Virus record (IMG/VR): IMGVR_UViG_3300005857_000013
Span: 1 to 37,986 of that record
Length of the DNA: 37,986 nucleotides
DNA from: a virus
Direction: 5' to 3' (one strand)
Shown here: positions 3,088 to 37,000 of the stretch, piece after piece
Position numbering within the stretch: position 1 is the stretch's first letter
Layout of the letters: each line of letters starts with the position of its first letter
Translations under genes and position numbers: made by a program
The notes under the pieces: generated by a model
The model's input: the letters and a program-made list of their open reading frames with translations, nothing else
Database searches by the model: none
What the model was told of the DNA's origin: nothing

Positions 3088-3094
3088 GGCAAGA

Positions 3095-9866: not shown

Positions 9867-9876
9867 GGTGATTACC

Positions 9877-12740: not shown

Positions 12741-13019
12741 ATGGGGAAAGCCCGTATTGGCACGATATATCGTTATCGCACAGGGAAATATGTCCGAGAG
12801 AAGTTAGGGGATAAACCAAGGGATACGATAGGGTATCGGGTCGTGCCTGTGCCTGGCAAACCTGGTCGGAAGGTGTTGGTGGCTATTCGGCGCAAGAAAG
12901 GTCCCCGAGGGGGACGCACCAAAGCCATTGCCTTATTGCGCCATATCCGCACAGCCAAAGGGCGTCAATTGGCACGGCGTGCTAAAATTAAACGGGCACA
13001 ACGACGACGAAGGAGATGA
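12741..13019 (+). CDS. Small highly basic protein 3, Arg-rich tail
   Basis: The 92-residue protein has roughly 34 Lys/Arg and three acidic residues, ending in a run of arginines. The first half has strand-like segments (TIGYRVVPVPGKPGRKVLVAI) that could form a small beta domain. The second half is a basic helix. The charge and compact size suggest DNA binding, perhaps inside the capsid. The ATG at 12741 follows GGGAGGG. The next gene's ribosome site lies in its 3' end, so translation is probably linked. Confidence 0.75.
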   Translation: MGKARIGTIYRYRTGKYVREKLGDKPRDTIGYRVVPVPGKPGRKVLVAIRRKKGPRGGRTKAIALLRHIRTAKGRQLARRAKIKRAQRRRRR

Positions 13020-13024
13020 TACAC

Positions 13025-13819: not shown

Positions 13820-13831
13820 AGTTGGGTGTTT

Positions 13832-17881: not shown

Positions 17882-18571
17882 ATGGCTTCTCCTTGGGTAG
17901 CCGCAGGTTTGGGATTTGCAGTGGGGAGTTTATTCGGCAGAAAAAAGAAAAGAAAGCGACCCGAGGTTATCCAACCTCAACTCCAAATTCCCTATCTCAG
18001 TGAGCAGCAGATTTTAAGTCATCCGATGTTATCTCAGTTGTATCAACAGTGGAAACAGTTGGCACAAACGGTGTCCACAACCCCTCCCCCTACATTGCCT
18101 TCAGGGGTGATAGAAAATCTGTCCCATCTTGCTCAGTCACAACCCGATATCACCCACACTATCGCCACAGTGGGAGAAATGATGCGCCCTCTTTTTGAGC
18201 AAGAATTGCAGCGACAGTTGGAAATGACCCACGAACAATTGGCTCGTTCTTTGGGGACATCATCAGGCGGGGCGATTGCGGAAATGTTACGGAGACAAAT
18301 AGCGGAAGCAGAGCGAGGTTGGATGGCGCAATTGGGGCAAATGGGGATGCAGGAGTTGCAAGCACAACGAGGCTTGATGCAATGGGCGACCGAGGCGTTA
18401 CCCCGCATGATGACTTTCCAAGCCCAATTGCCCTTCCTGTCTTACACTCTGTTATCCCAAGCCACAGCACCGTTTCTGGGCACTTTCACTCAAGGGCAAG
18501 TCGTTCCAAGAGCGCCAACATTGATGGAGCAACTGTTACCTGTTCTGTTACTTGGGGGTATTTTCAGTTAG
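17882..18571 (+). CDS. Putative internal virion / ejection protein (small)
   Basis: The 229-residue protein starts with a glycine-rich hydrophobic segment (AAGLGFAVGSLFG) followed by a basic cluster (RKKKRKRP). It continues with long Gln-rich helices (EQELQRQLEMTHEQLARSLG) and ends in a hydrophobic stretch (LMEQLLPVLLLGGIF). A membrane-active N-terminus plus helical Gln/Ala-rich body is typical of small podophage ejection proteins (T7 gp14 functional class). It is the first of three such genes before the giant protein. The assignment is by organisation and order, not by a recognised domain. Confidence 0.5.
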   Translation: MASPWVAAGLGFAVGSLFGRKKKRKRPEVIQPQLQIPYLSEQQILSHPMLSQLYQQWKQLAQTVSTTPPPTLPSGVIENLSHLAQSQPDITHTIATVGEMMRPLFEQELQRQLEMTHEQLARSLGTSSGGAIAEMLRRQIAEAERGWMAQLGQMGMQELQAQRGLMQWATEALPRMMTFQAQLPFLSYTLLSQATAPFLGTFTQGQVVPRAPTLMEQLLPVLLLGGIFS

Positions 18572-18588: not shown

Positions 18589-19149
18589 ATGCCTTTGCGG
18601 ACACCTGAATTTTATACTCAGTTGGGAGTGGCTTTGCTACAACCCCAACAGTGGCAGATGTATTATGAGCCTGACCCGTTTGCGTTCATCGTGCAGAATT
18701 TGATGGCAGCCATGATGTTACGAAAAGGAATGCGACAACAGTCCTTGCGGGATATGATGGAGTGGATGACCCGAATGGGACCTGAGCAGGCGATGCAGTG
18801 GTTGAAGTTCCAACCCTTCCGTGACCTGTTCAAGAAACAAACGGGATTGAAGGAGAAGGATTTACAACAGATGGAAGCGACGATAGAAGAGATGTTGGCG
18901 CCTGAGCGGGAATTAATGACAATCCCATTTCCCACGACATCTGAACCCGCACCACCTCCTGCACCAACTCTTGCACCAATCCCTGCACCAATTTCTGCAC
19001 CGTTGCCCGAATATCCACCTCATCTCCCGATGCCGATGCCTGTCGTTCCTGTGCCGACCAGTGGGTTCGTTCCGCCGAAAGGCAGTGAATGGATGCCGTT
19101 CCTGCGTCTTGTATTCCCTGGGGTGCAGTTCCCTTGGGTGCTCTATTGA
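18589..19149 (+). CDS. Unknown protein with proline-rich linker, ejection-module candidate
   Basis: The 186-residue protein has a helical N-terminal part (about 1-105) that is rich in Met and Gln, for example NLMAAMMLRKGMRQQSLRDM. A Pro/Ala linker (about 118-165) follows, with repeats of the type APTLAPIPAPISAP, and then an aromatic C-terminal tail (FLRLVFPGVQFPWVLY). The long linker suggests that two binding ends connect partners. It lies between two putative ejection proteins in the same operon and may be part of the same internal core. No family is recognised. Confidence 0.6.
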   Translation: MPLRTPEFYTQLGVALLQPQQWQMYYEPDPFAFIVQNLMAAMMLRKGMRQQSLRDMMEWMTRMGPEQAMQWLKFQPFRDLFKKQTGLKEKDLQQMEATIEEMLAPERELMTIPFPTTSEPAPPPAPTLAPIPAPISAPLPEYPPHLPMPMPVVPVPTSGFVPPKGSEWMPFLRLVFPGVQFPWVLY

Positions 19150-19159
19150 GGTGAGGTAA

Positions 19160-21706
19160 ATGGCACAGTGGATTTTCACCCCTGAACAACACCGATATTT
19201 GGAAGAGTTATTACGGGGACGGCGGGTCATCTCGCCTGCTTTACCGTTGCCCCCCGCCCCTGCCTCTCCATCTCCGAGTAGAGAACATTTACCTTCTGAA
19301 GCCCGCTGGTTTCTGGAAAGGGCGGCGCCTCAGTTGTTCCGTCCAAGTTCAAGTCCAAGTTCAACACCCACATCCACTTCGTCTAAGTCATCTTCACAAC
19401 GAACCACAACGAGGCAGACGCAAGAGCGACCAACGGTTCGTTCTGCTACTCGTCCTACAACTTCAGCATCTCGTTCTGTTACTCGCTCAAAAATTCGTTC
19501 TACAACTTCAACAACTCGCAAACCCCAAATTGCTCGCCCAACTCCTGTTCCAGCCCCTTCTTCTCCGTCTGTTGCGCCACCTGTCATAGTCATACCTTCT
19601 TCTTCTCCGCCTGTTGCTGTTCCCGTCACTGCTCCCTTGCCGTTTCCATCCTCTCCAGAGGTCATCATGACTGAACCGCAACTTGCGGAATTGCCGATGC
19701 AATTTCGTCCCGTGCATCGGGAACGACCCCAAGTCGCTCTCCCCTCCGTGCCTGAACTTCCGCCCGATGAGCCACCTCCACCCAGCCCTGAGGAGCAAAA
19801 ACTACGGGAGTTTTTGTCTGACCCTCAGAATTGGCGGAAGTTGTTGACTTATGCGGAGATGTTTCCTCAACGATATGAGCGGTTGATGGCAATGATTGCT
19901 CGGTTTTATCCGAGGGCGTTTCCTGAAGGAGATATTCTGTTTCAGCGAGAGTGGTATGCCAACCGTCAACGACGCATCAACGAGCAACTGATGATGTATC
20001 AAATCCAATACCAGCGAGCATGGGATAGGTATCAGGCGGAAATCAATGAATTGCAAGAGAAATGGGAGACTTTCACACAATCCATTAATAATGCGGTGAC
20101 GCCTCAAGATGTTATCGGGGTGTTGTATGAGGCAGCGGGGGCAGGGTTGCCACCAGACAAATATCAGTTGTTGATGAGAATGGGGAAGGCAAAGTTGTTA
20201 GCCATCCTGAGCCAGTTGCCCACCCCAGAAATGCAGAAAACTTTAGACATCCTGGGACGCCGAGGGTTCTTCAGTCCTCAGGAGTTAGAGACTTTTCAGG
20301 GGTATTTACGAGGGGAACACTGGGCACGACGGTCACTTGCCTCTGTAGCGCAGATGGATGTTGCCCGATTGCGGTCAGCAATAGAACGGGCAAGTAATTT
20401 GCGGGTCAATGTGGCTCCGTTAGAAACGCAGTTGAAGCAGTTGGAGCAACTCACGACCATGATGGAAGATATGCCGACTAATCCAGAACTGCTGAATGTG
20501 ATTTCTCGCCAGACAACGCAGATAACGACGGAATTGGAGCGCTTAGTCCGAGAGGCGTTACGACCGATAGAGACCTCGTTGCAACGGTTAGCCAGTTTCA
20601 TCTATGCCCAGTTCGGGAACCGTGACCAGTTACGGTCATGGTTCCGAGATGCTATGCGCACCCTCCCGCAGGTGTTGGGGCGCTTTTCTCCCCAACTGAC
20701 CCAATCCCTGTTACAAAGCATGGGGGATATAGAGAAAGCCAATGACAAAGCCATTGCGGATGGCTTACTGATGTTGGCGGATGCGCTGACCGAGACGATA
20801 GAGCGGTTGAAGACCGATTTTGGCGACTTCCCGCAAGTGGCAGCGCTCGTCAGTATGGTAGAACCGCTGGTGGGAGAGTTGCGTCGCAAAGCCCAAGACC
20901 TTCACACGCTTGCTCAGACCTTAGAAAAAATTTATGACCAAGTGGCGGAAGCGTTAGCGAAGGACCCCCTGAGGGGGATGTCGGAGGCGCAATGGCAGCG
21001 GTTGGTGATGCAGCAACGAAACTTGCAATTGCGAGAGCGGGGGTTGCGGTTGCAAGCGGAGCGCAATGAGATAGCAAAGGCACGGCTGTGGTTGGAAGCG
21101 GAGCGCAATGAGATAGCGAAAGCACGGTTGCGGTTGGCAGAGCAGATGTTGGATTGGCGACAACAACAAGCGAATATCGGTCGGCTATTACAAACTTTGG
21201 GGCTCATGTTACGGCTTCATACACAACAGGGTGACTACAACAACGCCCTCCGCATTGCAGGCACTTTGGCGAATATCTTGAGCGACCTCGGCAACTTGGA
21301 TAAATTGGAAAACTTGGGGCTCTTATCCCCTGAATTAGCAGGGGCAGTGAAAGTTCTACGACAGGTTTCGGAAATTCAACTGAACGCTCTGCTCAGTGAA
21401 CTTCAAAATGCCCAACAGAAATCGCAGAAAGGGACAAAGGTGTCGCCTGACCCTATTGTGCAACGAGTGGACGAGTTGCTAAATACCCTATTGCTCTCCT
21501 TGGGGTTACCGCCTCTGCTGACACCTGAGGGACAACCGACTTCAACTCCTTCAACTACTTCACCAAGGCAAGAGCAAGTGCCGAAGCAGGGGAGACAATT
21601 ACCCATCCCAGTTGGGAAACCTGTTGCTCCCCGACCAAGCCCCTCTTCGCCCCCTGCTCGTCCTTCTTATCGGGATGTGCTTGGGGGAGGGCTATTTACA
21701 CCCTAA
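19160..21706 (+). CDS. Large helical internal virion protein candidate
   Basis: The 848-residue protein has a short N-terminal helix (about 1-25), a 190-residue disordered Ser/Thr/Pro/Arg-rich region, and then an almost wholly alpha-helical body (about 225-780). Long coiled-coil segments include MYQIQYQRAWDRYQAEINEL and the duplicated AERNEIAKARL. A Pro/Ser tail ends in RPSYRDVLGGGLF. Size, helicity and place before a giant lytic transglycosylase protein fit an internal core/ejection protein (T7 gp15 functional class). No enzyme motif was seen. The ATG at 19160 follows GAGGTGAGG. Confidence 0.55.
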   Translation: MAQWIFTPEQHRYLEELLRGRRVISPALPLPPAPASPSPSREHLPSEARWFLERAAPQLFRPSSSPSSTPTSTSSKSSSQRTTTRQTQERPTVRSATRPTTSASRSVTRSKIRSTTSTTRKPQIARPTPVPAPSSPSVAPPVIVIPSSSPPVAVPVTAPLPFPSSPEVIMTEPQLAELPMQFRPVHRERPQVALPSVPELPPDEPPPPSPEEQKLREFLSDPQNWRKLLTYAEMFPQRYERLMAMIARFYPRAFPEGDILFQREWYANRQRRINEQLMMYQIQYQRAWDRYQAEINELQEKWETFTQSINNAVTPQDVIGVLYEAAGAGLPPDKYQLLMRMGKAKLLAILSQLPTPEMQKTLDILGRRGFFSPQELETFQGYLRGEHWARRSLASVAQMDVARLRSAIERASNLRVNVAPLETQLKQLEQLTTMMEDMPTNPELLNVISRQTTQITTELERLVREALRPIETSLQRLASFIYAQFGNRDQLRSWFRDAMRTLPQVLGRFSPQLTQSLLQSMGDIEKANDKAIADGLLMLADALTETIERLKTDFGDFPQVAALVSMVEPLVGELRRKAQDLHTLAQTLEKIYDQVAEALAKDPLRGMSEAQWQRLVMQQRNLQLRERGLRLQAERNEIAKARLWLEAERNEIAKARLRLAEQMLDWRQQQANIGRLLQTLGLMLRLHTQQGDYNNALRIAGTLANILSDLGNLDKLENLGLLSPELAGAVKVLRQVSEIQLNALLSELQNAQQKSQKGTKVSPDPIVQRVDELLNTLLLSLGLPPLLTPEGQPTSTPSTTSPRQEQVPKQGRQLPIPVGKPVAPRPSPSSPPARPSYRDVLGGGLFTP
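21056..21139 (+). repeat. 42-bp coding duplication in the helical virion protein
   Basis: Two adjacent 42-base units each encode AERNEIAKARL plus three residues. They begin at 21056 and 21098 and share the block GCGGAGCGCAATGAGATAGC. The 14-residue period equals two heptads, so the duplication keeps a coiled coil in register. Confidence 0.85.
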
Positions 21707-21839: not shown

Positions 21840-24800
21840 ATGGCACGACAAACGGCAGGTCAGAAGGAAGTCATTATTCAGCGCATTATCACGGAAGCCT
21901 TACGACGAGGTTATAGCGTCCCTGAAATCTTTGCTTTGCTGACAATTGCCAACATAGAGAGTGGCTTTAACCCCAAGGTCATTGGGGATGGGGGAAAGTC
22001 GTTTGGTCTTTTTCAGGTCAATGAGGCGAGGTTCCCTCGTTATGGGGTCACGCCTCAGACGGCTCGTCAACTCTTAGATGTCAACTATCAACTTCCCCGT
22101 GTCTTTGACGATTTTGAACAACTCCGTCAACGCCTTCGGAAAACAACCCCCGATATTTTCCAAGACCTACCGACTGAGATTTCCCCTGCCGAATTAGAAG
22201 AGCGTCTTGCCAAAGCCTTCGTCCTTTACGGGACCTATTGGAACCGCCCTGCTCTCTTAGACGAAGTGTTGCGAGACCCTCGGGCGTTTGCGAAGGTATA
22301 TCCCAAAGTCCCTCGGCAAGTCATGCGTCAAAAGATGAAGGAAGCCTATCAGTATTTGATGCGGTTCTTGCCCCATGCTGCCCGAGGGTTACAGGCACAA
22401 ATCGCAGGACAAATGGCGGAGGCGTTGGGGTTAATTCTACGAGAAAAAACCCAAGTGCCCGCTCGTCCGTTACCCTACACTCAAGTTCGTCCTGCTACGC
22501 CCGTTCCGCCTGAAACCCAAACGCCCGTGATAGCCGAACTGGCGCAGTTAGCCCCTCATTTGCCCACCCTCTATGCACTGGGGAAAACTTTTCTGAACAT
22601 CGTCCGCCCCTATGAGGAACGCAAGGAGAAGCCACCTATCCAGTATGCTTTCAAAACCTTACCCAATTACAAATATGCGGATGAAGACGAAAAGATTATC
22701 GGGCACCTCTTGCAGCAATTTGTGCCAGGGTTTGAGACTGTTTGGAAACGGATGCGTCCCGACGAACGGGTTAGCACCATTTCGTTGCTGAAGAGCACCC
22801 TGCGGACGGTTGCACCCCTCCACAATCGGCTGGCTGCCGAACAAGACCCGCAACGGCGTCGGGAACTTCAGGCGCAGATAGACCGCCAGATGCGGGTGAT
22901 GCTGGTTCGGTTGCACCAAGCCGTCCCCACCTTGCGAGCCCTGCGTCCGCCGTCGTGGCGGTTAGCGGGGGAAATCATGAAGGAGTTCGGGGTCGGGGCT
23001 ATCCGAGATGTCTTGGCAACCCTCTTGATGATACCTGCCTCTGTGGACTTCCGTCGCCAATACCCCATCCAAGACCCCCAAACAGGCACTGTTACTTATG
23101 TCTCTTTCCCTGAATTTGTGCGCCATCGCATTCAAGAACGGGTGCGCTCCTTGCCGTTAGACAAAAGAGAGGCAGCAATACTGGAAAAGTTGGCAATGGA
23201 TGTTCTACCTACCAAACCGACCGCCCCGTTGTGGTTGATTTATGACACTTTGAAGGGAGCATTGGCGGATTTAGTGGGAGGGATTGCTTGGGTGGGAGCC
23301 TCCTTGGGTGATTGGGTGATGGGGGTCTTGGGGCGGCGCACCCGAGCAGGGAAGATGGTGGAGCAACTCTTTAACCGATGGGGGCGGTTGGTGGGCTATT
23401 ATGCGACGGAGTTAGCCAGAGACCCTGAGTTCCGTCGTCGCCATGCGGGTTATGCCTTCAATTTCCTTCTGACCGTCAACCCTGATGCCATCAATCGGCG
23501 CACAATGCAACCGACGGAGTATGGTTGGTATCAATATGCTCAACACTTTGTTGTGAATATGCTGCAAGACATTGCTGCATATGCGTTGGGTGACCAAATT
23601 CCTCAGTGGCTGCACGAAAGCCTCATCCATCGCTCGCCTATCTTAGGATTTCTCACTACTTTGTTTGTTCCTGGCGGAGTGTTGAAGTTAGCGGATAAAG
23701 CGATTAAATGGTTGACACGAGTGGGGCGATTGTCTGAGCAAGCCGCTCAGGCATGGCATTGGGCAGTGCGAGGGGCTGCCTTTACCCTTTTCGGGATGCC
23801 CGAGGAAGCCTTGCGTCCTGTCATTGTCTCTCGTCTGGGGTCTAAGATAGCCGAAACCGCTTTGCGGGGCGTGACTGCCGAACAAGCCACGATTTGGGAG
23901 CAGGCTGCCCGACTGGTGGGGCGTCCAAGCAAACCTTTGGTGACTTTGCTTAAGAGCGGTGTGAAAGAGGGGCTGCCTTGGGAGGAGGTCGCCAAAGTCT
24001 ATCAGCGGTCATTCCAGACAGTGGAAACGATATTTGATGCGCTGACAGGGACGACAATGGGGTTGATTTACATGTCACCGACCTTTGGGGATGAACGGGA
24101 TTATGTGGCAGGGATGTTGGCGGGGCTGGGGATGAGTATGGGGTTAAAGTTGCCGTCGTTGTTGGTGGGGAAGGCATGGAACCGTATTGCAGAGAAGGCA
24201 GGTTTGCCGATTTCGGAGTATAAAGTGCCTCCCGAGGTCGGGTTACGGGTTTGGGAGCGGTTGCGGGAGTTTATTCGGGATGTGATGGGGATAGAGAGTG
24301 TGATTGCCCCGACGATGAAACGCCCACAAGCGGAGGCGGAATTAAAACGGTTTGGTCAGGCGGTTCGGAAGTTGTTCGGGGACGAGTTGGCGGTCACGAT
24401 TTTGAATGAGTTATGGGAAGAGTATTTAGGGCGTCGTTATCCGCCGATAACACCCGAGGTAGCCGAACGCTTGCGGAAGTTGCGCCCCACTCTCATCCAA
24501 GAAGCCACTCAGTGGGTCTATCAAAACTTACCTGACGAGTTCCGAGCGAAGATAGAGGCAGGGCAACCCTTCCAGCCCACCGAATTACGAGATTTGCAAA
24601 ACCAAGTGTTCCAATTGACGGTGCAATATTTCACGCAGGAAAAGAAATTCAATCGCCCTCCTTCTGAGAAGTTAGCCGCCGAGGTATGGGTGCAGTTGCT
24701 GTTAGACAAAAATATCCAATTTGTCCCTCGTTTCCCCAAGGTGCCTCCCAAGGATATTCGGGCGGCAGCGTTCCAAAGTCTCGTGCAGGAGATACCTGCT

Positions 24801-27800
24801 GTTGAAAAGGCAGTAGGGCGACCTAATATTCATGACTTGAATGATTTGACGGCATGGACGCTTATCCGATTGCCTTCGGAGTTAGTTGAAAAATTGCAGG
24901 AACCTGTTCCTGTTTTAGATGCTGAAACGGCAACCGCATTACGGCGTGCCATTGTTACTCTCACCGAGCCTTATTTCCGACGATTATCCGAACAACAACA
25001 AACCGTTTTGCGGTCACAGATTTATCAGCGCTTGTTGGAATGGCATAACAAATTACCTCCCGAAACGCCAACGGGGATTGTGCCCTATCGTCCTGTTGCT
25101 ATCACCACCCCCTTCCCGACGGCTATCGTCCCCTTCCGTCGGCGACGAGGGTTTGAAGAACCTGTGGAGATTACCCCTTATACTCCCCCACCACCAGGAC
25201 GACCTGTTAATCTCACTTTGGACGATGTGGAGCGGTTAAGCCAGGTCATCCTCACGCACATCGCCCATGACCCGAAAGCCGCTCAGGATGTCAGAGGCAT
25301 AGTGAGGGCGGCTCGGAAAATTTACGGAGAGGCTTCCGAGGGCGTCGCAAAGGTGTTAGAGGCGACGACTTTGATGCAGGCAGCGAAAACCGCTGCCCGC
25401 AAAGCCGAGTTTTTGCTCTACCATTTGCAAAAGTATGGGTTGCTCCCTGCTGACCGAGCCAAAGAATGGCGCACTCAGGTATTACAACTGTATCGGGAGT
25501 ATGACCGCCGATTTCGGCAAGACCCGCATGTTGTGCGGGTGCGGGAGAATGCGATTGAGTTTCTGAACCGTTTGGTAGATGTCATGAATGAGGTGGTGCG
25601 GGACGCTCGGTTGGACGACGAGGTGCGACGGGCAATTCAGGAGATGCAGCAGGAACCGTCCGTTACGGTGCGCACGGTCGTCCCGCAGGAACCTATCCCT
25701 GGGGAGCGGGTGGTTACGGCAACCTTCCCAGACCCACGCTCTCAAACCCTTCTGATGATATTGTCAGGGACAAGGACAGTGCAGAGAGCGATAGAACCTG
25801 AAATGGATTGGGTGACCCGTCAAGCCATCCCTCACATCAAAGTCATTCAATCTTTCAGTCGGGAGAAAAGTCTGGGATACATAGAAGCGTTAAGAGGTAG
25901 TCAACAACATGCCTTCGTTTACCGTGTCACTGACCCCGAGATGCAACGAGAGAGTTGGGTCATTGTTGGCGTGCCCGCTCAGAATATGACCGAGGAAGGG
26001 GCTCGTCAAATTGCCGATGCCCTCATCACGCTGTTAGGTGGCACAGGACACACCGAACAACGCCCATCCTTTAGTGACCTTGTGCGGACTTTTGAACCGC
26101 TGCATCCCTTGTTGACACTTTTGTCGGCTTGGTGGACAGACAAGGAAAAGTATCGGCGGATGGTGATGGAGGATGCGGAAACCCGACAATGGTTGATGCG
26201 GGAAATGAATTTAGAGAAAATACTACGAACGCCAGACGATTGGGAATTATTCTGGATGCGGACGACAAAGGAACTCCACGATGACCAACTGGCTTGGGAT
26301 AGGTTGGCAGCCCTCGCCTCAGAAAATGACCAAGTTCGTCTCCGCCGAACGCAAGTGTTCGCCCAATCCGTCTTCCGAGACATTGACTTACCTGTCGGAT
26401 TGGCTTATTGGATAGTCTCGGATATTGGTCTTGCTTCAATGACGGCGTTTGTTCCTGAACTGAATTACAAGTTCGTGACTTTAAATCGTCGGTTAGCAAC
26501 CATACGGTCTTTGCTTACTCAGGGGCTAATAGAAGAGTTCAATGCCCATCTCAGCACTTGGTTTTCCGCTCCAGGACACAACTGGACAGTGCAAATTCGT
26601 TCCGATTTACCAACCCCCTTCGTTTTCACCCTTTCAGAACACTCCAATTCCTTGTCTATGACCCCCGCTGTGTATGAGGACTTCATGAGGTTCTATTTAG
26701 AGCGATACAAACACGACATAGCAGCAGGCATTTCTTTGCCGTTGCATCCCCTTGCCTATTTCTTAGAATTCCTCAAAACTCGCCCCGACTTACAACAACA
26801 CATTTCTTCAGAGGCTTTTCAAAAACTAACTGAACAGTTACAGCGACAGTTCACAAAACGAGAATTTCGGACGGAGTTGGAAATTGTTACGCAATCTACT
26901 GCTGACCTCTTGTCTTCCGAGATACAACAGAACATGATGCGGTATGTAGAAGAAAACTATCCTCACCGTCCAGAACTTCAGGCATTTCTCCGTTCTATCT
27001 TGAATTCGTCGGTGGCAATCGTGCGGAGCGATGAATTGTGGGGGACAGGTAAGACATGGGGGTTGTTCATGGTGGATACACCCCATGTTGTGTATGTGTA
27101 TGATGTGCAACCTGTGGAGCGCAGTGTGATTTTGCACGAACAAATGCACCAGTTTTTGCAACGATTGTCGGGGGAAACTGATTATTACCGTCGTGAACAT
27201 TTGTTCCGCCAATTTACGACAAACCCTGATGAATTCTACGACCTTATTCCTATTCTCTTAGACCCCAAGCGAATTCTCCATTATCTCGCAGGTCCTGTTG
27301 AAGGTCTATTCCTACTTGTCACAAGAGTGCCTCATCCATATATCCGAGGTTCAGACGATTTTAGACTACTTCCCTTCTTGCAGTATGCCATTTTGAGTTC
27401 TTTGAATATCGCCCGAAATGTTCTTCATGCAACCAGGTCAGCGTCCCAGAAAGGCGAACGCTTCCGTCAACAGGGCATGGCAGCACTGGAGCCATGGGAG
27501 AAGGATGCTCTACGGTTTGCAAACTACTGGGCACAGGCGCTGATAGAGAGACAAGGTGCCCGCAATGTTCAGTTCGTGCCGACCCAGATATTTGTGCCTT
27601 TGGCGGTGCGGTTGCTTCGTTTCCATGATGCGGTCATGGAAGTGGCTCGGTTGCTTTCGGACATTGGGTTACAAGATGCTGCCACCCAACTGCAACGCCT
27701 CTATTCTGAACTTCCTCTCCGACTATCTCATCAAATTGTGGCGGGCGTTCGTATTCGTTCTGATGAACCCTTCTCCATCAGTAGTTTGCTGTATCGGTTG

Positions 27801-30800
27801 GGGGATGAGTATCTTGTTTGGGGCTATCGTCAGGAGATGGCGGGGATTGCACAGATATTGCAGTTTGTGGAGGGGTTGAGAGAGCAATTAGAACGACATG
27901 GGTTAAGGAACTATGTGCGTGAGATACAGGAAGCCGCTCAGTTAGCAATACGGCGTTTGAACGAGTTTCCCAATAAGTTCATCAATTGGTTGATAGACCG
28001 CACAGTGGAGGCAATTGAAGCCCCTGAAAATGTCGTGGAGTTGGCGACGAAAGTCGGTCAACAACCCGACCGATTGAGTGACCCTGCATTTGTTCGTGAA
28101 TTGAAACAGTGGGCGCCTGAGGAACTGTTACGCCCTCCCACGATATTGAACAAAGAAGCGTTTCCGTTAAACAATTTGATAGAAGAAATGCTGGCAACTA
28201 CAATGAGTTTCATTGGGAGAATGGCAGATTACCCCAGTCACAGAGGCTATTATGGGTTAGTTGCTTGGGCTTTGGTAAATGAGGTTATCCCGATATTATT
28301 GGATATGGCAAAAGACTTGAATGCCCTTCTTGTCAACAACCCTGAATTATACTTACCGCTTCGTCTTCGGGAGGAAGTAGGTCAATACTTAGCCCGATTA
28401 CAGCGAATATATGAGGTGTTGGATGCGGGGCATACGGTCGTGGCGAGGGTGTTGGGAGATGACGAGTTACAGCAGTTTGTTTGGCAGGCAGCGGGACGAT
28501 TAGCCGACCAATATCGGTCTCTGTTAGCCGTTCATCCGCCTTCGGTGGCGGAAGTGGTGGAATTTGTGCGCAAGAACTTCCCGACCCGTCCGTTGATGGC
28601 GGAGTTGCCGATAAGTCGTCGGCAACCTGCGGCACCGACTGAACCCCCTCGGGCACAATTAGAACCGCTTCCGTCCCTGCCTGCCCCTGAACAAATCAAC
28701 GACATTCGGGATATTCTACGGGTCTTTCTGTCGCCTTCCCGCCAACCTGACTACAACATCATTGTTCAGCACATCTTAGATGACCCCTTGATGACTTTGA
28801 TGTCGTTCCGAAGTGGCTACGAGTTATATCAGTCTTTAGCCCACACCTTGCGCAGTTCCTCTGAGAAGTTCTGGAATACCTTCCATGCGGTTTTGTTCCC
28901 AGAAATCCTGTCTCTCAGTGAAACCATCCGAGGATTGTTGTTGCAATTCCATCCGCAGTTGCAGCAATGGGGCAAGCGAGGCTTTCTTAGCATGGACGAA
29001 TTGCGTCTCTTAGACAACACTTTCCGACAAATTCAAGAAGAGTTGGCAGTGGATATTGCAGCCCGCATCTCTACTCGTCTTTCTGCTCAAGGGTTGCCGT
29101 TGGACTATGCTGCGGGACGAGCGTTGGATATTGCCCAAGCACTGGTGGAGGATATGTGGGTCTTGTCGTCGGGGGTCTTACCTCGGGATATTACCGCCGT
29201 CATCGCCACGATTAGAGAAGAACTTCGTCGGTCCCCCTTAATGCAAGTAACTTCCACAGGGAAAATCACTTATCTTGACCTCTATAAAGTTTGGAGAAGG
29301 GACATTAGCCGATTATTTGACCGTTTCGTTGATATGGTCATTGTGCCAGGCACCAAGAATATCCCTTGGACAAAAAGGTTGTATCGGGAACTTTTTGATG
29401 CCCTTCAACAAGCCAGCGAGAAAATCCCTGCGGTGCGTAAGTGGTTAAACAATTTGGCAAACAGTCTCCGTAATGAGGAACAATTTGAAGCGGTCTTGAA
29501 GGCGTTCCCCAGCGAGGTGTTGCAGCAGGAAGTGGAGCCAGGATTGCCCTTTGTGGCGTATGTGGCGGGGAGGATAGCCGAATTGTGGTATCCCAGGTCC
29601 CCCTTCGCCGTCGGTCAAGAGTTGAACGATATTCCCTTGGTCTCTTTGGTGACGCTCAGCAGTCGGTTGTATGCCAATCTCCAACCCTCACAACCCAAAC
29701 GCCCAGGACAAACACAACCTCCTCCCTCGCCCCGAGACCCGTTCCGAGAGTGGGCGACTTTACGCCAACGAGAGAGCCTTTCTGCCTCGGAACAGTCTCG
29801 GTGGAAGAAATTGGAGGAGGAAATCCCCAAGCAATTGCCACAAATTGCTCCTTGGGTAGAAAAGATGTATCGGAGTTTATTGCGTCGTTTCCGAGAAGCC
29901 TTACTCTCTTACCTTGACCTGTATGTGCTGGGGCGTTACTTATCTAACAAACATCGGCAATTATCTTCCTATTTGGAAAAAACTCAACAGTTTGCAAAAT
30001 TAAAATTCGCCGAGCCATTGTTGAAAACGCACTATGAACTCCTTCACACCCTCCTTTATGATAACCTTAAGAATTTGCCCAAGGAAATACAGTCGGCTAT
30101 TGTTCGGTTTGCAGAAGAGATTACTCAACATGAATTGCATCAACTAATCCATGAGCAACTTCGGCGTAGGGGGATACCTACGGAGTATCATCCCGCATTT
30201 ATCCAACAAATAGTGCAGGCATGGCTACGGGATGGCATAGATGGGATAGTGGAGAAGGAATTTGTGCATCCTCAATATGGGCAACGCCCCGTGACCTTTT
30301 CCCGCCCTCAAGTGGAAAATATGGTGAACAATATTGTGGAAGCCATTAAACGGTATTGGCAAGATGTGGAGCGTATCCAACGATTAGCCCGTCAAATATT
30401 AGAACAAGACCCCAAGGTATCCAAGTTGAAAGAGTGGTTGCGCTGGTCAGTGCAGAAAGACCCCAGCACAGGGATGCAACAATTGATTGACCACCTCGGT
30501 AATCCTGTCACGAATACTTTGGTGTTTAAGGGATATATTCAACTGTTCCAAGATGACTTTATGGATTTAATTCAGACTTACCATGATGAACTAACCCAAC
30601 ATTTGGTGCGGCGTTATGGGAATGCTGGGGAGGGATATGCTCGGACATTCTTGGAAGTGGTGGGTGATGCAGAGAAGTTAATGAACTTTATTTCTAATCA
30701 CCCTGAAGTGTTTGTGGATATTCTTCGTTTTCTTTCTCAAATTTACTTAGAACAAGAAGGCATTCGGGCAGTATCTTCTTCTCAATTCACATATCTGGGG

Positions 30801-33800
30801 TTTGAGGAGGCGGAGCGAATGATACGCTCATTGGTGCGGTCAGGAATGCGAGGAGGGATAGAGACCCGTTTCTTGGCAACATTGGCGCTGATAGGGGCAC
30901 TGGCAACCGCTTACAAAGCCTTCCCTGGTTTAGCAGCCGTGTTGAGCAATGCGTATGCGTTGTTAGCCTCTGCTCCCATCACTTCTGTGTGGACGATGGC
31001 AGGCTTGACGGGATTGGCGGGCATCACCCTCATCGGGATGTTGAAGGGACGACCCATCCTTCGGGCAACAGCAGCGAACTTCAGCACCCTCTTAGAACGA
31101 GCCTCCCATCTCTTTGCAACCACCCAGCAAACCATCACTCAGGGAGTAGAAGCCGCTGCCCAACGCCTTGCCGAAGTGGACCCCAAACTGGGGGCTATTG
31201 CAAAGGCAGCCGCAACGGAGTTGATAGAAGCGCCTGGCGCAACGCCTGTGGATGGGATGGTGGATGAGTTAGTCAATAGCCTGAAGTCAGGTAGCAATGC
31301 CATCTTTGCCCAGAAACCGCTTCGGGAGGTGACGGGGCGAAGTGTCAAGTTAACGAGGCGAGAACGAGAGCAAATTGCCCAAGCCACTGCTCAACGAGTG
31401 GGTATTCTCGCCTTATTGATGGGTAACCAACAACTGTTGGACACGGTAGAAAATTACGGGAAGTTGACCTTAGAAGCCCAACTGATGTTGAACGGTCTCC
31501 AAAACATTGCGAAAAATCGGTCGCTCGGCAATGACCTCACTCGGAACTACCTCGCTTATGTCTTCTTCCAGTTCATGAAGGGGAAGCCCAATTGGCAAGC
31601 GATTGCTGACCAGCCGTTGCGAGAAGTGTGGAAGCGCACTTTGTTGTCCGTGCCCGTGCCGACGCCTCAAGGCATCCAGCGGGAACGCTTTAAAGTGACG
31701 GACTTCACGATAGACATTGGGGGGCAACAACGCAATGTGGGCGACCTGACGGTGAGAGAGTTATGGGACGAACTTTACCGCCACTATGGCTACACGGGTT
31801 GGAGTTTCAATGCTATCAGCGCCTTAGACCCTGCGGCTCGGTATGAAATATTGCGGAACGCCACCAGTTACCTCCGACACCGAATGAAAGAGTTCATCAA
31901 GATGCAAGCCGACCCACAATTGCGAGCCAGTGCGGCGTATGCAGCGATGGCACTGGACGGTATTCGGCGGGTGAAGTGGGTGTTGTCCGACCCTGAGACA
32001 GCAGCGTCAGTGGAATATCATCCCGTTGCTCGGCTTTTCTTTGTGGAGAACTTGATGGAAGCCGACGCTCTGATGCAACACCCTCGGGTGCAACAGGCGT
32101 TAGGGGCATGGGCACAACCCCTCCGAGACTTCTACCGCAACTACTTGGACGCTATCCGTCAGCACGACCCTGCCCTCTATCAATCCGCTCGGCGACTGTA
32201 TCAAGAAGGACAAAAACATCTGAACGCCTTCATCACCCGAGTGGAGAACGCCCGTGTGGAAGATATTCCGAAAATCTTAGAAGAGTGGTCTTTGGAGAAC
32301 ATGAAGTTATTGCGGAAGTGGTTGTTGACGGCAGCACGGCGGTTGGAAGTGGCAGGGGTTGACCGCCCCCTCGCCGAACAAATCCGTCACATGATGGCGG
32401 AACCTGGCGCTCATGTGAACAGTGCATGGGTGCGATTGATGGAAACGCCTTGGGAAGAGGAGTTGTTGTTGCAGATTATGACGCCCACCCCTGAGGGGAG
32501 TGCGCATGTTGCTCCCTTCATTGTGAACCACCCTGCGGCTGCCATTTTCCGAGAGATTGCCGCAGGGGCTCGCCCGCCCAAAGAACGGGCAACTCCGATG
32601 AAGTTGTGGTCGTTCGTCGGCGCTCAAGGGGAAGCCTTGGCACGGCGGATTGCTAAGTCGCAGAAGGTCAGTATAGACGAAGTTCGGAAAGCGTTGAACA
32701 AGGTCATGTATTATGCCTACACCGCTGTGCGAGACCCGAACACCTTCCCCGACTTCAATGCCGTGTTCCAGCGGATTGACGAACCGATGCGACGCATCTT
32801 GACTTCGCCCGCCTATCGGAATTATGTAGAAAGTTTGACGGTAAACGCCGTTATCTCTGCCGCCTACCTGACCAATCTTCTCAGCACTCGTGCTTTGTTG
32901 GGCGAAACGCTCTTCCGAGGCGAACCGAGGGTGAACTTGATTGAGCGGGCTTACTTCCCGCTGTCGCCTGAATTGGCAGACATGCCACAGGACATTTGGG
33001 CGTCCTTGATTGTAGACTTGGCAGACTTGATGACAGGAGAGAATGACCGATTGCGGGTAACTCGGTATGGGATTGGGAAGCGGATGTTCCACTACGAACG
33101 CACTGAACGAGCCCTACCGAAAGCCGAACAGTTCTACAATATCATGACCAACTTCTTCCGCACCATCAATGCCTACAATGCTCTGCTTCCCTATGCCCCT
33201 GTGCTCAAAGGCTTAACGGTGTTGGCGCCGAAGTGGCTCCAACCCGCTATTACTCGGGAACTGCATTTGACAGTGGGTTCCCCCTTACTACGACGGGGGT
33301 ATCGTGACCCAGTAGAAGTCTTTGTGGACACCTTGGCACGGCGAGCCGAAGGATGGGAGTTGATAGCGAATTATCTCTCACAGTCGGCACCGATGGTCAG
33401 TTTGGAGATGGCGACCCGACTGGGTGGGGCAGCAGCACGGCTCCTCTCCGTTACCCAAATCCAAGCCTTAGCCGCCAACATCAACTCCATCGTTCGGCAA
33501 ATCACCACCTTCGCAACTGCTGCTGCCCGATTAGTGTCCGATTTCGGGGCTCCTCTTTATGCCTTACTTCCTCTTTGGCACTTCCCACGAGCCCTGTGGA
33601 TTGCGCTCCGAAGCCAACTGAATTGGGAACTGAGCCCTGTGGAACGGATGTTGCTGGCACGGATACCTGCCTTGTTGGCTCGGCACGAACAGTCGCATCG
33701 GGCAGCCGTTCTGCGTGGCGTGGAATTCCTCACGATGGCGGCGCAAGAGAAAGGACCTTTAGCGAACGCCATTGCGGATTTGTTAGACCCCACTTTGCCG

Positions 33801-35573
33801 ACCGACCGAAAAGCCACTGCCTTCGCCCAATTAGACCGTCAGTTGGCACAGCATGGAACGCTCAGCGAAAAATTGACGGAGTTGTTGTTAGGTCCGTTAC
33901 AGTTGTTAGACGAGGCGATGGTGATAGCGACGGCATTGGCAGGGATGGAAGCCTATCTCGCCGAGGCACAATCCAAGCGGTTACCGATAACTGACGAAGT
34001 CTTACGGGAGGCAATAGCATATGGGGCGAACTTGGCGGAGAGTGTGCAAGCCACCCCGAATGTCTCCTTTGCCCCTGTTGCTTTTAATGACGCTCGGATG
34101 GCAATTTTGTTAGGTCCGCTTGTTCGCCAGTTTGTTGTCGTGGGGTTCGCTATTGCTGAAACGAACTCCAAGTTGTTGCTGAAAGAGCCTCTTAAAGCCG
34201 TTTCGGACCTTGTGGCGGTCTTCCGAGGACAGAAACCTGCCAGTGCTGCCATAGATGCCTTGGAGCAATTGTCTAAGACTTTGGTAGCGTTAGCGGTGAT
34301 GAACCTCGGATTGTTGTCGCTCAATGCACTCTATCAATCACTGACGGGACGACAATTAGAAGAGGTGCCGTTGGGTTATCCGCCTGATGACCAGAGTTTG
34401 TCGTTGGCGAATTTGGTAGAAGAGGGGTTAGTGGCGATGACGCCTCGGGCGGTCGTGCGGTTGGGGAACTTGATGGCATACGCCTTCATGGGGAATGCCC
34501 CCGCCGTTTATGACACGACGATGACGACGGATGTGCCTCCCGTCATCCGAGGCGTAGCACAGACCTACAATGCCGTGACGAAAGGCGTAGAACTGTATCG
34601 GGCTTTCTCATTATTGAGCGAACTGCCGAAATACAAGGATGCGCCGTTCATGGAGAAACTGTGGAAGTCTATGGAATACATGCGGCGAGGCGGAACGGAC
34701 ACGGCGAAAGTATCCACACTGGCGGATGTCCTTTGGGCATTGATGGCAATGGCGTCGCTTAATCCGACGACGGCTCGTGCCGTGCAATGGTTCCCGTTGG
34801 GGCAGTTGGCTCGGACAGGGCGAGCCATTACGGAGATGCGGCAAGGGTTACCTGCTCCTGCCGTCGCCGAGTTGGGAGAGAAGTGGTATGCGACAACCGC
34901 CCAAGCCATTGCAGGGTTGCCTTGGGCTTATGGTCATTATCCACCTTTCTTGCTCTTCCATAAGTTGGCTGGTCCTGTGACGGAAGTCCAACGCAAGCGG
35001 GCATCGGATATAGTAAAAACACACAACTTTATCCGAGCCTTCCGACATATCCCTGCTCAAGGGGTCTTTGTGGGGCTGACCGAATATGCTCGTCGGGCAA
35101 ATACCTTCGCTGACATAAATGCTATGTTGTATCTCACAGCGATGCCTCAATGGTTACGACACAAAGATAGCCTCTTTGGGCAGTCTATCCAAGAGTTTCT
35201 CCAAGCCGCTAATACTTCCGAAGATGCCATGTATCAGTTCATCATGTCTAAACCCAACGACTTCATCGCTATGATGCTTATCTTTGGACCTGAGGAGATA
35301 CAGAAACGAGCCCCGAAGGTGACGGAGCACTGGTTCCATAACGGGCAATTTATGCCTCAGGCAGTTATTGCAGGGTTACGGCGCTATGGCTATATTTCTC
35401 CCGACAAAGAACCCTTTGCGGAGTATTTGCTGGACATCCTCCGCTATGCTGCTAAAACAAACTTGCGCCAATATGTGGTGCGAAAGTATAGAGACCTGTT
35501 ACGACGGCAGATGATGCAACGGGCGCTTTCTGAAATAGAGGCAGCCAAACAGATAGAGGAGGCGATAGAGTGA
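21840..35573 (+). CDS. Giant 4577-residue virion protein: N-terminal lytic transglycosylase, internal HExxH motif
   Basis: This single uninterrupted gene fills over a third of the window. Residues 1-180 form an SLT-type lytic transglycosylase with catalytic E40 (TIANIESGFNP) and SFGLFQV (54-60), which cuts peptidoglycan during DNA entry. Pro-rich linkers near 207-225, 1078-1125, 2258-2285 and 2615-2640 divide the rest into mostly helical blocks. HEQMH (1766-1770) follows beta strands and forms a zinc-metallopeptidase-like motif. Hydrophobic stretches lie near 387, 476-497, 740-780, 3010-3070 and 4147. The plan resembles T7 gp16 or a phage polyvalent protein, but is much larger than T7 gp16 (about 1300 residues). 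No RNA polymerase motif was found. The ribosome site is weak. Confidence 0.85.
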   Translation: MARQTAGQKEVIIQRIITEALRRGYSVPEIFALLTIANIESGFNPKVIGDGGKSFGLFQVNEARFPRYGVTPQTARQLLDVNYQLPRVFDDFEQLRQRLRKTTPDIFQDLPTEISPAELEERLAKAFVLYGTYWNRPALLDEVLRDPRAFAKVYPKVPRQVMRQKMKEAYQYLMRFLPHAARGLQAQIAGQMAEALGLILREKTQVPARPLPYTQVRPATPVPPETQTPVIAELAQLAPHLPTLYALGKTFLNIVRPYEERKEKPPIQYAFKTLPNYKYADEDEKIIGHLLQQFVPGFETVWKRMRPDERVSTISLLKSTLRTVAPLHNRLAAEQDPQRRRELQAQIDRQMRVMLVRLHQAVPTLRALRPPSWRLAGEIMKEFGVGAIRDVLATLLMIPASVDFRRQYPIQDPQTGTVTYVSFPEFVRHRIQERVRSLPLDKREAAILEKLAMDVLPTKPTAPLWLIYDTLKGALADLVGGIAWVGASLGDWVMGVLGRRTRAGKMVEQLFNRWGRLVGYYATELARDPEFRRRHAGYAFNFLLTVNPDAINRRTMQPTEYGWYQYAQHFVVNMLQDIAAYALGDQIPQWLHESLIHRSPILGFLTTLFVPGGVLKLADKAIKWLTRVGRLSEQAAQAWHWAVRGAAFTLFGMPEEALRPVIVSRLGSKIAETALRGVTAEQATIWEQAARLVGRPSKPLVTLLKSGVKEGLPWEEVAKVYQRSFQTVETIFDALTGTTMGLIYMSPTFGDERDYVAGMLAGLGMSMGLKLPSLLVGKAWNRIAEKAGLPISEYKVPPEVGLRVWERLREFIRDVMGIESVIAPTMKRPQAEAELKRFGQAVRKLFGDELAVTILNELWEEYLGRRYPPITPEVAERLRKLRPTLIQEATQWVYQNLPDEFRAKIEAGQPFQPTELRDLQNQVFQLTVQYFTQEKKFNRPPSEKLAAEVWVQLLLDKNIQFVPRFPKVPPKDIRAAAFQSLVQEIPAVEKAVGRPNIHDLNDLTAWTLIRLPSELVEKLQEPVPVLDAETATALRRAIVTLTEPYFRRLSEQQQTVLRSQIYQRLLEWHNKLPPETPTGIVPYRPVAITTPFPTAIVPFRRRRGFEEPVEITPYTPPPPGRPVNLTLDDVERLSQVILTHIAHDPKAAQDVRGIVRAARKIYGEASEGVAKVLEATTLMQAAKTAARKAEFLLYHLQKYGLLPADRAKEWRTQVLQLYREYDRRFRQDPHVVRVRENAIEFLNRLVDVMNEVVRDARLDDEVRRAIQEMQQEPSVTVRTVVPQEPIPGERVVTATFPDPRSQTLLMILSGTRTVQRAIEPEMDWVTRQAIPHIKVIQSFSREKSLGYIEALRGSQQHAFVYRVTDPEMQRESWVIVGVPAQNMTEEGARQIADALITLLGGTGHTEQRPSFSDLVRTFEPLHPLLTLLSAWWTDKEKYRRMVMEDAETRQWLMREMNLEKILRTPDDWELFWMRTTKELHDDQLAWDRLAALASENDQVRLRRTQVFAQSVFRDIDLPVGLAYWIVSDIGLASMTAFVPELNYKFVTLNRRLATIRSLLTQGLIEEFNAHLSTWFSAPGHNWTVQIRSDLPTPFVFTLSEHSNSLSMTPAVYEDFMRFYLERYKHDIAAGISLPLHPLAYFLEFLKTRPDLQQHISSEAFQKLTEQLQRQFTKREFRTELEIVTQSTADLLSSEIQQNMMRYVEENYPHRPELQAFLRSILNSSVAIVRSDELWGTGKTWGLFMVDTPHVVYVYDVQPVERSVILHEQMHQFLQRLSGETDYYRREHLFRQFTTNPDEFYDLIPILLDPKRILHYLAGPVEGLFLLVTRVPHPYIRGSDDFRLLPFLQYAILSSLNIARNVLHATRSASQKGERFRQQGMAALEPWEKDALRFANYWAQALIERQGARNVQFVPTQIFVPLAVRLLRFHDAVMEVARLLSDIGLQDAATQLQRLYSELPLRLSHQIVAGVRIRSDEPFSISSLLYRLGDEYLVWGYRQEMAGIAQILQFVEGLREQLERHGLRNYVREIQEAAQLAIRRLNEFPNKFINWLIDRTVEAIEAPENVVELATKVGQQPDRLSDPAFVRELKQWAPEELLRPPTILNKEAFPLNNLIEEMLATTMSFIGRMADYPSHRGYYGLVAWALVNEVIPILLDMAKDLNALLVNNPELYLPLRLREEVGQYLARLQRIYEVLDAGHTVVARVLGDDELQQFVWQAAGRLADQYRSLLAVHPPSVAEVVEFVRKNFPTRPLMAELPISRRQPAAPTEPPRAQLEPLPSLPAPEQINDIRDILRVFLSPSRQPDYNIIVQHILDDPLMTLMSFRSGYELYQSLAHTLRSSSEKFWNTFHAVLFPEILSLSETIRGLLLQFHPQLQQWGKRGFLSMDELRLLDNTFRQIQEELAVDIAARISTRLSAQGLPLDYAAGRALDIAQALVEDMWVLSSGVLPRDITAVIATIREELRRSPLMQVTSTGKITYLDLYKVWRRDISRLFDRFVDMVIVPGTKNIPWTKRLYRELFDALQQASEKIPAVRKWLNNLANSLRNEEQFEAVLKAFPSEVLQQEVEPGLPFVAYVAGRIAELWYPRSPFAVGQELNDIPLVSLVTLSSRLYANLQPSQPKRPGQTQPPPSPRDPFREWATLRQRESLSASEQSRWKKLEEEIPKQLPQIAPWVEKMYRSLLRRFREALLSYLDLYVLGRYLSNKHRQLSSYLEKTQQFAKLKFAEPLLKTHYELLHTLLYDNLKNLPKEIQSAIVRFAEEITQHELHQLIHEQLRRRGIPTEYHPAFIQQIVQAWLRDGIDGIVEKEFVHPQYGQRPVTFSRPQVENMVNNIVEAIKRYWQDVERIQRLARQILEQDPKVSKLKEWLRWSVQKDPSTGMQQLIDHLGNPVTNTLVFKGYIQLFQDDFMDLIQTYHDELTQHLVRRYGNAGEGYARTFLEVVGDAEKLMNFISNHPEVFVDILRFLSQIYLEQEGIRAVSSSQFTYLGFEEAERMIRSLVRSGMRGGIETRFLATLALIGALATAYKAFPGLAAVLSNAYALLASAPITSVWTMAGLTGLAGITLIGMLKGRPILRATAANFSTLLERASHLFATTQQTITQGVEAAAQRLAEVDPKLGAIAKAAATELIEAPGATPVDGMVDELVNSLKSGSNAIFAQKPLREVTGRSVKLTRREREQIAQATAQRVGILALLMGNQQLLDTVENYGKLTLEAQLMLNGLQNIAKNRSLGNDLTRNYLAYVFFQFMKGKPNWQAIADQPLREVWKRTLLSVPVPTPQGIQRERFKVTDFTIDIGGQQRNVGDLTVRELWDELYRHYGYTGWSFNAISALDPAARYEILRNATSYLRHRMKEFIKMQADPQLRASAAYAAMALDGIRRVKWVLSDPETAASVEYHPVARLFFVENLMEADALMQHPRVQQALGAWAQPLRDFYRNYLDAIRQHDPALYQSARRLYQEGQKHLNAFITRVENARVEDIPKILEEWSLENMKLLRKWLLTAARRLEVAGVDRPLAEQIRHMMAEPGAHVNSAWVRLMETPWEEELLLQIMTPTPEGSAHVAPFIVNHPAAAIFREIAAGARPPKERATPMKLWSFVGAQGEALARRIAKSQKVSIDEVRKALNKVMYYAYTAVRDPNTFPDFNAVFQRIDEPMRRILTSPAYRNYVESLTVNAVISAAYLTNLLSTRALLGETLFRGEPRVNLIERAYFPLSPELADMPQDIWASLIVDLADLMTGENDRLRVTRYGIGKRMFHYERTERALPKAEQFYNIMTNFFRTINAYNALLPYAPVLKGLTVLAPKWLQPAITRELHLTVGSPLLRRGYRDPVEVFVDTLARRAEGWELIANYLSQSAPMVSLEMATRLGGAAARLLSVTQIQALAANINSIVRQITTFATAAARLVSDFGAPLYALLPLWHFPRALWIALRSQLNWELSPVERMLLARIPALLARHEQSHRAAVLRGVEFLTMAAQEKGPLANAIADLLDPTLPTDRKATAFAQLDRQLAQHGTLSEKLTELLLGPLQLLDEAMVIATALAGMEAYLAEAQSKRLPITDEVLREAIAYGANLAESVQATPNVSFAPVAFNDARMAILLGPLVRQFVVVGFAIAETNSKLLLKEPLKAVSDLVAVFRGQKPASAAIDALEQLSKTLVALAVMNLGLLSLNALYQSLTGRQLEEVPLGYPPDDQSLSLANLVEEGLVAMTPRAVVRLGNLMAYAFMGNAPAVYDTTMTTDVPPVIRGVAQTYNAVTKGVELYRAFSLLSELPKYKDAPFMEKLWKSMEYMRRGGTDTAKVSTLADVLWALMAMASLNPTTARAVQWFPLGQLARTGRAITEMRQGLPAPAVAELGEKWYATTAQAIAGLPWAYGHYPPFLLFHKLAGPVTEVQRKRASDIVKTHNFIRAFRHIPAQGVFVGLTEYARRANTFADINAMLYLTAMPQWLRHKDSLFGQSIQEFLQAANTSEDAMYQFIMSKPNDFIAMMLIFGPEEIQKRAPKVTEHWFHNGQFMPQAVIAGLRRYGYISPDKEPFAEYLLDILRYAAKTNLRQYVVRKYRDLLRRQMMQRALSEIEAAKQIEEAIE

Positions 35574-37000
35574 TGGAAGTGTTGGTGCGTCGTCAGCCGA
35601 ATATTCGGGGCAAATTTGTCGTCGTGTCCAACTACGGCTGGTGCTGGAACATGGCTTTGTGGCTCCAAGAGGAAGGGCATGAGGCGGTCGTCTATATCCA
35701 CGAACCGACTTACAAACATGTGGCGGAGGGGTTGGTGACAAAGGTGGACAGTTTAGACGAGGTGTTGCGGACAGATTTCCGACGAGAGTGGATTTTGGTG
35801 GCGGACAATATCGGGATGGGACGGATGTTGGACGAGTATCGGCGTCAAGGATGGCTCGTTTGGGGCGGGAGCGCTTGGGCTGACCGCATGGAGAAAGACC
35901 GACAGTATGCGATGCGGTTCTTTGAATACTGCGGTATCAAAGTGCCATTGACCTATACTGCCCAAGGAACCCAAGATGCTCGTCAATTCCTTCAAAAATA
36001 TCCTGCTCGTTGGGTTTTGAAACCCCACGACAACAAAGTGCAAGTGTATATCTCAGAAGGCGTAGAAGATGCGTTGGAGGTGCTGGATTGGTGGGAGAGT
36101 TTGGGGTTAAGCACGATGGAAATTGATGTGCAGCAGTTCATTGAGGGGCGCAACATAGATGTAGAATTGTGGTTTGGCAATGGGTTTCCCTTCCTACCTG
36201 CGAACTACGATATAGAGACAAAGAAATTCTTGGTGGACGATTTAGGGATGACTGTTGGATGCATGTCATCAGTGTGTTGGTTTTCCTATCGCACGGATGT
36301 GCGAGTGTTGCAAGAAGTGTTATTCCCCTTCGCTCAGCAAGTCAAACGAACCCGTTGGACAGGACCTGCGTCTATCAACATCATGGTAGAGGAAGACACG
36401 AATGAACTGTATGCCTTGGAGTTAACCCCTCGGATAGGGTATAACGCTTACTATTGTCTCCATCATCTCAAAGGAAGCGTGGGTTGGGGTGAGATTATCT
36501 GGCGGATGTGTCACAAAGAGACCGAGGAATTAGAGGTCATAGAGGGCTTAGACGAAACAAAGTTTGCCGTTGGGATTGAAGTCTCCATCCCTCCCAGCCC
36601 CGTTGAGCACCCTGATAAACAGTTCATGAAGCGGTTGTATGAGGAAATTGCGAAGGGAGTGCCGCTGTGGGTGCACGAGGGACGGTATCCTGCTCATGTG
36701 CATCTTTGTGATGTCATGAAAGACGAACATGGGCGGTTGGTTTGTGCAGGGACAAACGGCATCGTGGCGGAAGTTATTGCGGTAGATGAAGACCCCCACG
36801 CAGCGCTGCGGAAATGTGCTGAAACGGTCAAGATGCTGAAAATCCCTAATAAACAAGCCCGTCTCCGAGACGCTCTGGATGATTTTGACCGCTATTATCC
36901 CCGTTGGACAAAGCACGGCATCGTTGCTCCCCTATATAATGTCGCTCACGGCATCGTTTCCCCATCGCCATTGTTATTGTGGGGCGAAAATTCGGGGTAA
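35573..37000 (+). CDS. PurD-like ATP-grasp ligase
   Basis: ATP-grasp ligases activate a carboxylate with ATP and join it to an amine; PurD joins glycine to phosphoribosylamine. The 475-residue protein follows the PurD plan. An N-terminal Rossmann-like part (KFVVVSNYGWCWNMALWLQE) comes first, then an ATP-grasp core with WVLKP (K150) and QQFIEGRNIDVELW (187-200). TGPASINIM (263-271) and LELTPRIGY (282-290) match the PurD TGP and EFNxRFG regions. The glycine-rich loop after K150 is changed (HDNKVQVYI), so the substrate may differ. ATG 35573 (or GTG 35570) overlaps the giant gene's stop, with GAGGAGG upstream. It is the last gene before a terminator. Confidence 0.8.
   Translation: MEVLVRRQPNIRGKFVVVSNYGWCWNMALWLQEEGHEAVVYIHEPTYKHVAEGLVTKVDSLDEVLRTDFRREWILVADNIGMGRMLDEYRRQGWLVWGGSAWADRMEKDRQYAMRFFEYCGIKVPLTYTAQGTQDARQFLQKYPARWVLKPHDNKVQVYISEGVEDALEVLDWWESLGLSTMEIDVQQFIEGRNIDVELWFGNGFPFLPANYDIETKKFLVDDLGMTVGCMSSVCWFSYRTDVRVLQEVLFPFAQQVKRTRWTGPASINIMVEEDTNELYALELTPRIGYNAYYCLHHLKGSVGWGEIIWRMCHKETEELEVIEGLDETKFAVGIEVSIPPSPVEHPDKQFMKRLYEEIAKGVPLWVHEGRYPAHVHLCDVMKDEHGRLVCAGTNGIVAEVIAVDEDPHAALRKCAETVKMLKIPNKQARLRDALDDFDRYYPRWTKHGIVAPLYNVAHGIVSPSPLLLWGENSG

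Follow-up and report, generated by a model that had tools for sequence, protein, structure and literature searches.

What might a phage do with a single protein of 4,577 residues? The window analysed here is the whole of IMG/VR record IMGVR_UViG_3300005857_000013 (37,986 bases), and 36% of it is occupied by one ORF that runs from ATG to stop without interruption:

21840..35573, + strand: giant ORF, 4,577 aa, cysteine-free (ORF calls; orthologues)

Relatives were gathered through searches with the terminase, the portal, the capsid and the gene downstream of the giant. A complete, stop-free and syntenic giant is present in three other IMG/VR records (G006, 5,137 aa; G008, 5,068 aa; G007, 5,054 aa), and two further contigs carry its N-terminal part up to the contig end, namely G010 (1,800 aa, 64% identical to the window) and G011 (2,292 aa, 31% identical). 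The giant-bearing records split into two clades, with inter-clade identities of 16–19%. In blastp, the giants of the window and G006 match with E=1e-38 over residues 2973–4551 and with 2e-11 over residues 3–621. Conservation peaks at residues 1–900 and 3000–4577, and is lowest between.

An earlier note on this DNA had described the uninterrupted 13.7-kb gene, which is borne out, and had allowed that the frame might be joined by an assembly error. Its length is unusual within a metagenomic contig, but the four independent complete frames, the two partial ones and the signature of purifying selection refute such a join and leave practically no chance that the frame is a misassembly or a stop-free non-coding stretch. 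Evidence for selection comes from the comparison of the window with G010, where synonymous differences are saturated (pS 0.81) while pN is 0.24; codon-position GC is also coding-like throughout the gene. Judged by sequence, then, the giant is a member of a newly seen family of proteins of 4,600–5,100 residues, which exceed in size the RNA polymerase injected by phage N4. The sample of one relative (3300005860) is from Washburn Spring, Yellowstone (PMC7380581, PMC9723716). Searches of GTDB genomes for a prophage or host, using the capsid and the gene downstream of the giant as queries, turned up no relative.

The N-terminal transglycosylase and the gene block

The N-terminus carries the domain that the earlier note had proposed:

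21885..22199, + strand: SLT-type lytic transglycosylase core, about residues 16–120 (PF01464; motif residues invariant in 6/6 homologues)
21957–21959, + strand: putative catalytic Glu40 (invariant in 6/6)

When residues 1–900 are used as the query, the PF01464 match (E=1.4e-4, 21.9 bits) lies above the cut-off of 21.3, compared to 20.7 bits for the full-length protein. Glu40 and the remaining SLT motif residues (Gly, Ser, Gln and Asn) are the same in all six homologues. By motif and profile, the N-terminus is an SLT-type transglycosylase, real though weak by profile. A Pfam scan of all six homologues found no other domain, a tblastn search of 50,697 phage records, run piece by piece, gave matches confined to the SLT domain, and PDB sequence searches (single and profile) returned only lysozymes, on the SLT part.

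The surrounding genes provide evidence on the type of virus and on the company that the giant keeps:

1756..3087, + strand: large terminase
3095..5035, + strand: portal protein; nearest named relatives mostly podoviruses
15614..16567, + strand: major capsid protein, related to podovirus PTXU04
17882..18571, + strand: 229-aa protein lacking cysteine, its ends glycine-rich/hydrophobic; alternative candidate for the small ejection protein
18589..19149, + strand: 186-aa cysteine-free neighbour, candidate gp14/N4 gp52-like protein (place and size only)
19160..21706, + strand: 848-aa cysteine-free neighbour, gp15/N4 gp51-like (place and size)
35570..37000, + strand: 476-aa protein, weak ATP-grasp match; overlaps the giant's stop

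Portal and capsid sequences point to a podovirus. No tail-tube or tail-chaperone family was found among the 20 genes scanned against PHROGs (the record is incomplete). The structural block of the window closes with genes for 186 aa, 848 aa and the giant, in that order. G006 shows the order 210, 761 and 5,137 aa, with its 761-aa gene, likewise cysteine-free, in the place of the 848-aa gene; in G007 and G008, a cysteine-free gene of 750–770 aa precedes the giant. Neither the 848-aa nor the 186-aa protein has sequence similarity to its same-place counterpart in G006. The 229-aa protein is conserved in G006 (39% identity) and is an alternative candidate for the outer-membrane pore.

This arrangement resembles those of phage N4, with the order gp52, gp51 and gp50, and of phage T7, in which gp14 (196 aa), gp15 (747 aa) and gp16 (1,318 aa) follow one another. 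T7 gp16 is likewise cysteine-free, its gene closes a set of three ejection genes and is the largest of them, and the protein likewise begins with an SLT-type transglycosylase whose catalytic Glu lies near residue 40 (E37 in T7). The window giant differs in being 3.5 times as long and in having an extra HExxH segment and Pro-rich linkers. Profile comparison (hhalign) of the giant with T7 gp16, N4 gp50 and PTXU04 gp25 detected no homology beyond the SLT fold, each target being a single sequence, such that very distant kinship may have escaped detection. The same limited sensitivity applies to the C-terminal part of T7 gp16, to which no homology was detected with the single T7 sequence. Given this, the giant is not classifiable as a gp16 homologue. 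The SLT domain, the small/middle/giant order, the podovirus portal and capsid, and the lack of cysteine nonetheless support the gp16-like role suggested in the earlier note, which thus stands as a role and not as homology. We consider it likely that the giant serves a podovirus as its largest ejection (pilot) protein, as a functional counterpart of T7 gp16 and N4 gp50. Our best reading is that it acts like these proteins, without demonstrated homology to either.

The middle region, the linkers and the C-terminal module

More than 4300 residues had been left without a function in the earlier note. Two features can now be placed within them, an invariant HExxH motif and a conserved C-terminal module. 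The first lies in the least conserved part of the protein:

26943..27224, + strand: putative zincin-like metallopeptidase core, residues 1702–1795; predicted helix/three strands/HExxH helix, low model confidence
27135..27149, + strand: HExxH motif (HEQMH), residues 1766–1770 (invariant in 6/6 homologues)

In a 581-residue alignment of the middle, the sole invariant columns are R, D, P and the H-E-x-x-H itself, and D, P, H, E and H remain invariant in the local alignment around the motif. A 'PVAF'-type strand precedes the HExxH by 48–59 residues in all six homologues. The two clades are misaligned at the motif in a 230-residue crop, and aligned in a tighter strand-anchored crop and in three longer alignments. 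For comparison, any HExxH appears in 0.4–2.4% of local shuffles. Another HExxH, at residue 3949, was disregarded because it is missing in G006 and G008.

Predicted secondary structure around the motif (helix, three strands, HExxH helix, helix; pLDDT about 50) follows the order reported for the zincin-like peptidases of polyvalent proteins, in which the HExxH helix is likewise followed by a second helix (PMC5512222). Two AlphaFold runs gave pLDDT values of 46–52 for this region, and fold searches with these low-confidence models returned no meaningful match. A zinc-ligand Glu in the second helix was sought after the HExxH, and none aligns across both clades; nor did any curated Pfam peptidase family match the segment by profile in the window or its homologues. 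With model confidence low and the fold search empty, we treat the peptidase as a hypothesis: by motif and predicted element order, the segment is possibly a zincin-like metallopeptidase.

Pro-rich linkers occur where the earlier note had placed them, and so do the hydrophobic blocks that it described (residues 756–776, 3015–3035, 4087–4107 and 4144–4164):

22437..22526, + strand: Pro-rich linker 1, residues 200–229
25044..25238, + strand: Pro-rich linker 2, residues 1069–1133; same place in G010 and G011
28599..28688, + strand: Pro-rich linker 3, residues 2254–2283
29652..29741, + strand: Pro-rich linker 4, residues 2605–2634
30837..35570, + strand: conserved C-terminal module, residues 3000–4577, no known family (conservation in homologues)
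30882..30944, + strand: hydrophobic stretch, residues 3015–3035
34098..34331, + strand: two hydrophobic stretches, residues 4087–4107 and 4144–4164

Single linkers are modestly enriched in Pro relative to shuffles, with 8 Pro per 30 residues occurring in 26% of these. The C-terminal module (∼1,570 residues) is conserved, holds three of the four hydrophobic stretches and belongs to no known family.

These features bear on a reading that overlaps with that of an ejection protein. Phage polyvalent proteins (Iyer et al. 2017) are likewise >2,000 aa, combine a lysozyme-type domain with a putative zincin-like HExxH metallopeptidase domain, and are inferred to be delivered together with the DNA (PMC5512222). 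If the giant were such an effector, its bulk would consist of several enzymes acting on cytoplasmic host targets, with the HExxH domain serving as a processing peptidase. The pairing of an SLT domain with a possible zincin-like domain fits this known combination, an HExxH is also present in the C1 domain of N4 vRNAP (PMC12633501), and Pro-rich linkers divide the modules. On the other hand, SLT is the sole Pfam domain in the six homologues, and neither an LPD nor any other catalogued domain of polyvalent proteins, nor a second enzyme domain, was detected; the HExxH segment matches no Pfam peptidase, and it is the only motif in a fast-evolving middle region. We regard this reading as the less probable one. 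The same data bear on the suggestion that the giant combines several separately folded tools, which is possible, with evidence for just one extra tool, the putative metallopeptidase.

Cysteine content, tape measures and RNA polymerases

The giant contains no cysteine codon, compared to 244 and 241 that the other two frames of the same DNA would encode. Together with the two preceding genes, it forms a block of 5,611 aa with 0 cysteines. The remaining window genes have 41 in 5,899 residues, from which 39 would be expected in the block (binomial P about 1e-17, a descriptive value, as the test was conceived after the zero had been noticed). In G006, the corresponding block has 1 cysteine in 6,108 residues versus 45 expected.

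For controls, we picked proteins by role. Cysteine is absent from T7 gp15 and gp16, N4 gp50, gp51 and gp52, SP6 gp35–37, P22 gp7, gp20 and gp16, P-SSP7 gp15 and gp16, and PTXU04 gp23–25, and T7 gp14 has one. Cysteine does occur in several fibre or receptor-binding proteins of comparable size. Two tape-measure proteins, lambda gpH (L055 10542–13103) and P23-45 gp96 (L054 18988–33996), are also without it, and hence the property is not specific to ejection proteins. N4-like vRNAP is known to be cysteine-free, which has been attributed to its route across tail and oxidising periplasm (PMC2784036, PMC3915230, PMC3715699). The controls show the same signature in proteins of T7, SP6, P22, P-SSP7 and PTXU04 and in the two tape-measure proteins. 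Absence of cysteine may mark tail-threaded proteins, although by itself it cannot separate ejection proteins from tape measures. The earlier note had missed the cysteine zero as well as the HExxH.

Could the giant then be the tape measure of a long-tailed (siphovirus-type) phage, equipped with a cell-wall hydrolase domain? The 5,002-residue tape-measure protein gp96 of Thermus phage P23-45 is similar in size and cysteine-free, and weak PHROG and tblastn matches link the giant to tape measures, although these are confined to the SLT domain. P23-45 is a thermal-spring phage, and one relative of the window phage likewise comes from a Yellowstone spring. However, blastp of the giant against gp96 yields chance hits only, and gp96 belongs to a long-tailed phage and contains a DFDGD RNA polymerase. 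The podovirus relatives of the portal and capsid and the negative scan for tail-tube and tail-chaperone families (20 genes of an incomplete record) also argue against a tape measure, as does the position of the hydrolase at the extreme N-terminus, like that of gp16. We consider this explanation improbable.

In size, position and possession of an HExxH, the giant also resembles N4 gp50, the 3,500-aa vRNAP, which is likewise cysteine-free, lies last in the gp52-51-50 block and continues beyond its HExxH into a large C-terminal part that is mostly helical. Because other phage giants, such as P23-45 gp96, conceal an RNA polymerase (PMC10770324), a diverged virion polymerase of N4-like or two-barrel type, starting early transcription, was considered. 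A T7/N4 motif-B pattern that matches N4 vRNAP as a positive control is found in none of the six homologues; the same is true of a DFDGD-like motif, present at residue 779 of the control P23-45 gp96. No TxxGR is conserved among the six, and the middle region has almost no invariant residues. We rejected this reading as very unlikely on the basis of these controlled scans. Relative to N4 gp50, the window giant is longer and has an SLT domain, no RNA polymerase motifs and no detected sequence homology. In gp50, the HExxH comes after the polymerase part, whereas the giant has an HExxH without a polymerase before it.

A proposed route into the cell

Returning to the ejection-protein reading, we infer virion location, ejection, the whole route through the envelope and the peptidase activity. 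The giant, the 848-aa protein and one small protein would be stored in the capsid and, upon adsorption, pushed as a set through the short tail, largely unfolded or as beads on a string, with the absence of cysteine preventing disulfide trapping in transit. The small protein would open the outer membrane, the 848-aa protein would line the periplasm, and the N-terminal transglycosylase of the giant would cut peptidoglycan. The C-terminal module of the giant, which bears three hydrophobic stretches, may be located in the inner membrane or beyond it, where it would conduct DNA. After delivery, the HExxH segment, a putative zincin-like metallopeptidase, might act on a host protein or on the giant itself. 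A more speculative extension, which we offer tentatively, is that one injected chain combines cell-wall cutter, DNA conduit and protease, in place of an N4-like virion RNA polymerase.

If the ejection-protein reading is correct, podoviral ejection proteins reach >5,000 residues, in a group for which no cultivated member was found, and a protein of this size can be something other than an RNA polymerase. How a half-megadalton chain crosses a narrow phage tail could then be studied in a second system, unrelated to N4 by sequence. Lack of cysteine, already published for N4-like vRNAP, offers an inexpensive way to screen sequences for proteins that thread through phage tails.

Some observations concern the neighbouring genes. 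The 476-aa downstream protein also adjoins the giant in G006, G007 and G008 (48–50% identical), and a weakly ATP-grasp-like protein is an odd companion for an ejection gene. Between the tail genes and the capsid, the window encodes a trypsin-like protease (PF13365, E=2.7e-15) and then a metallophosphoesterase (13016–14701), neither of which has a counterpart among the G006 genes compared. Finally, two virion genes that precede the capsid in the window (9868–12179) follow it in G006 (L011 8422–10768), indicating that the structural block has been rearranged between the clades.
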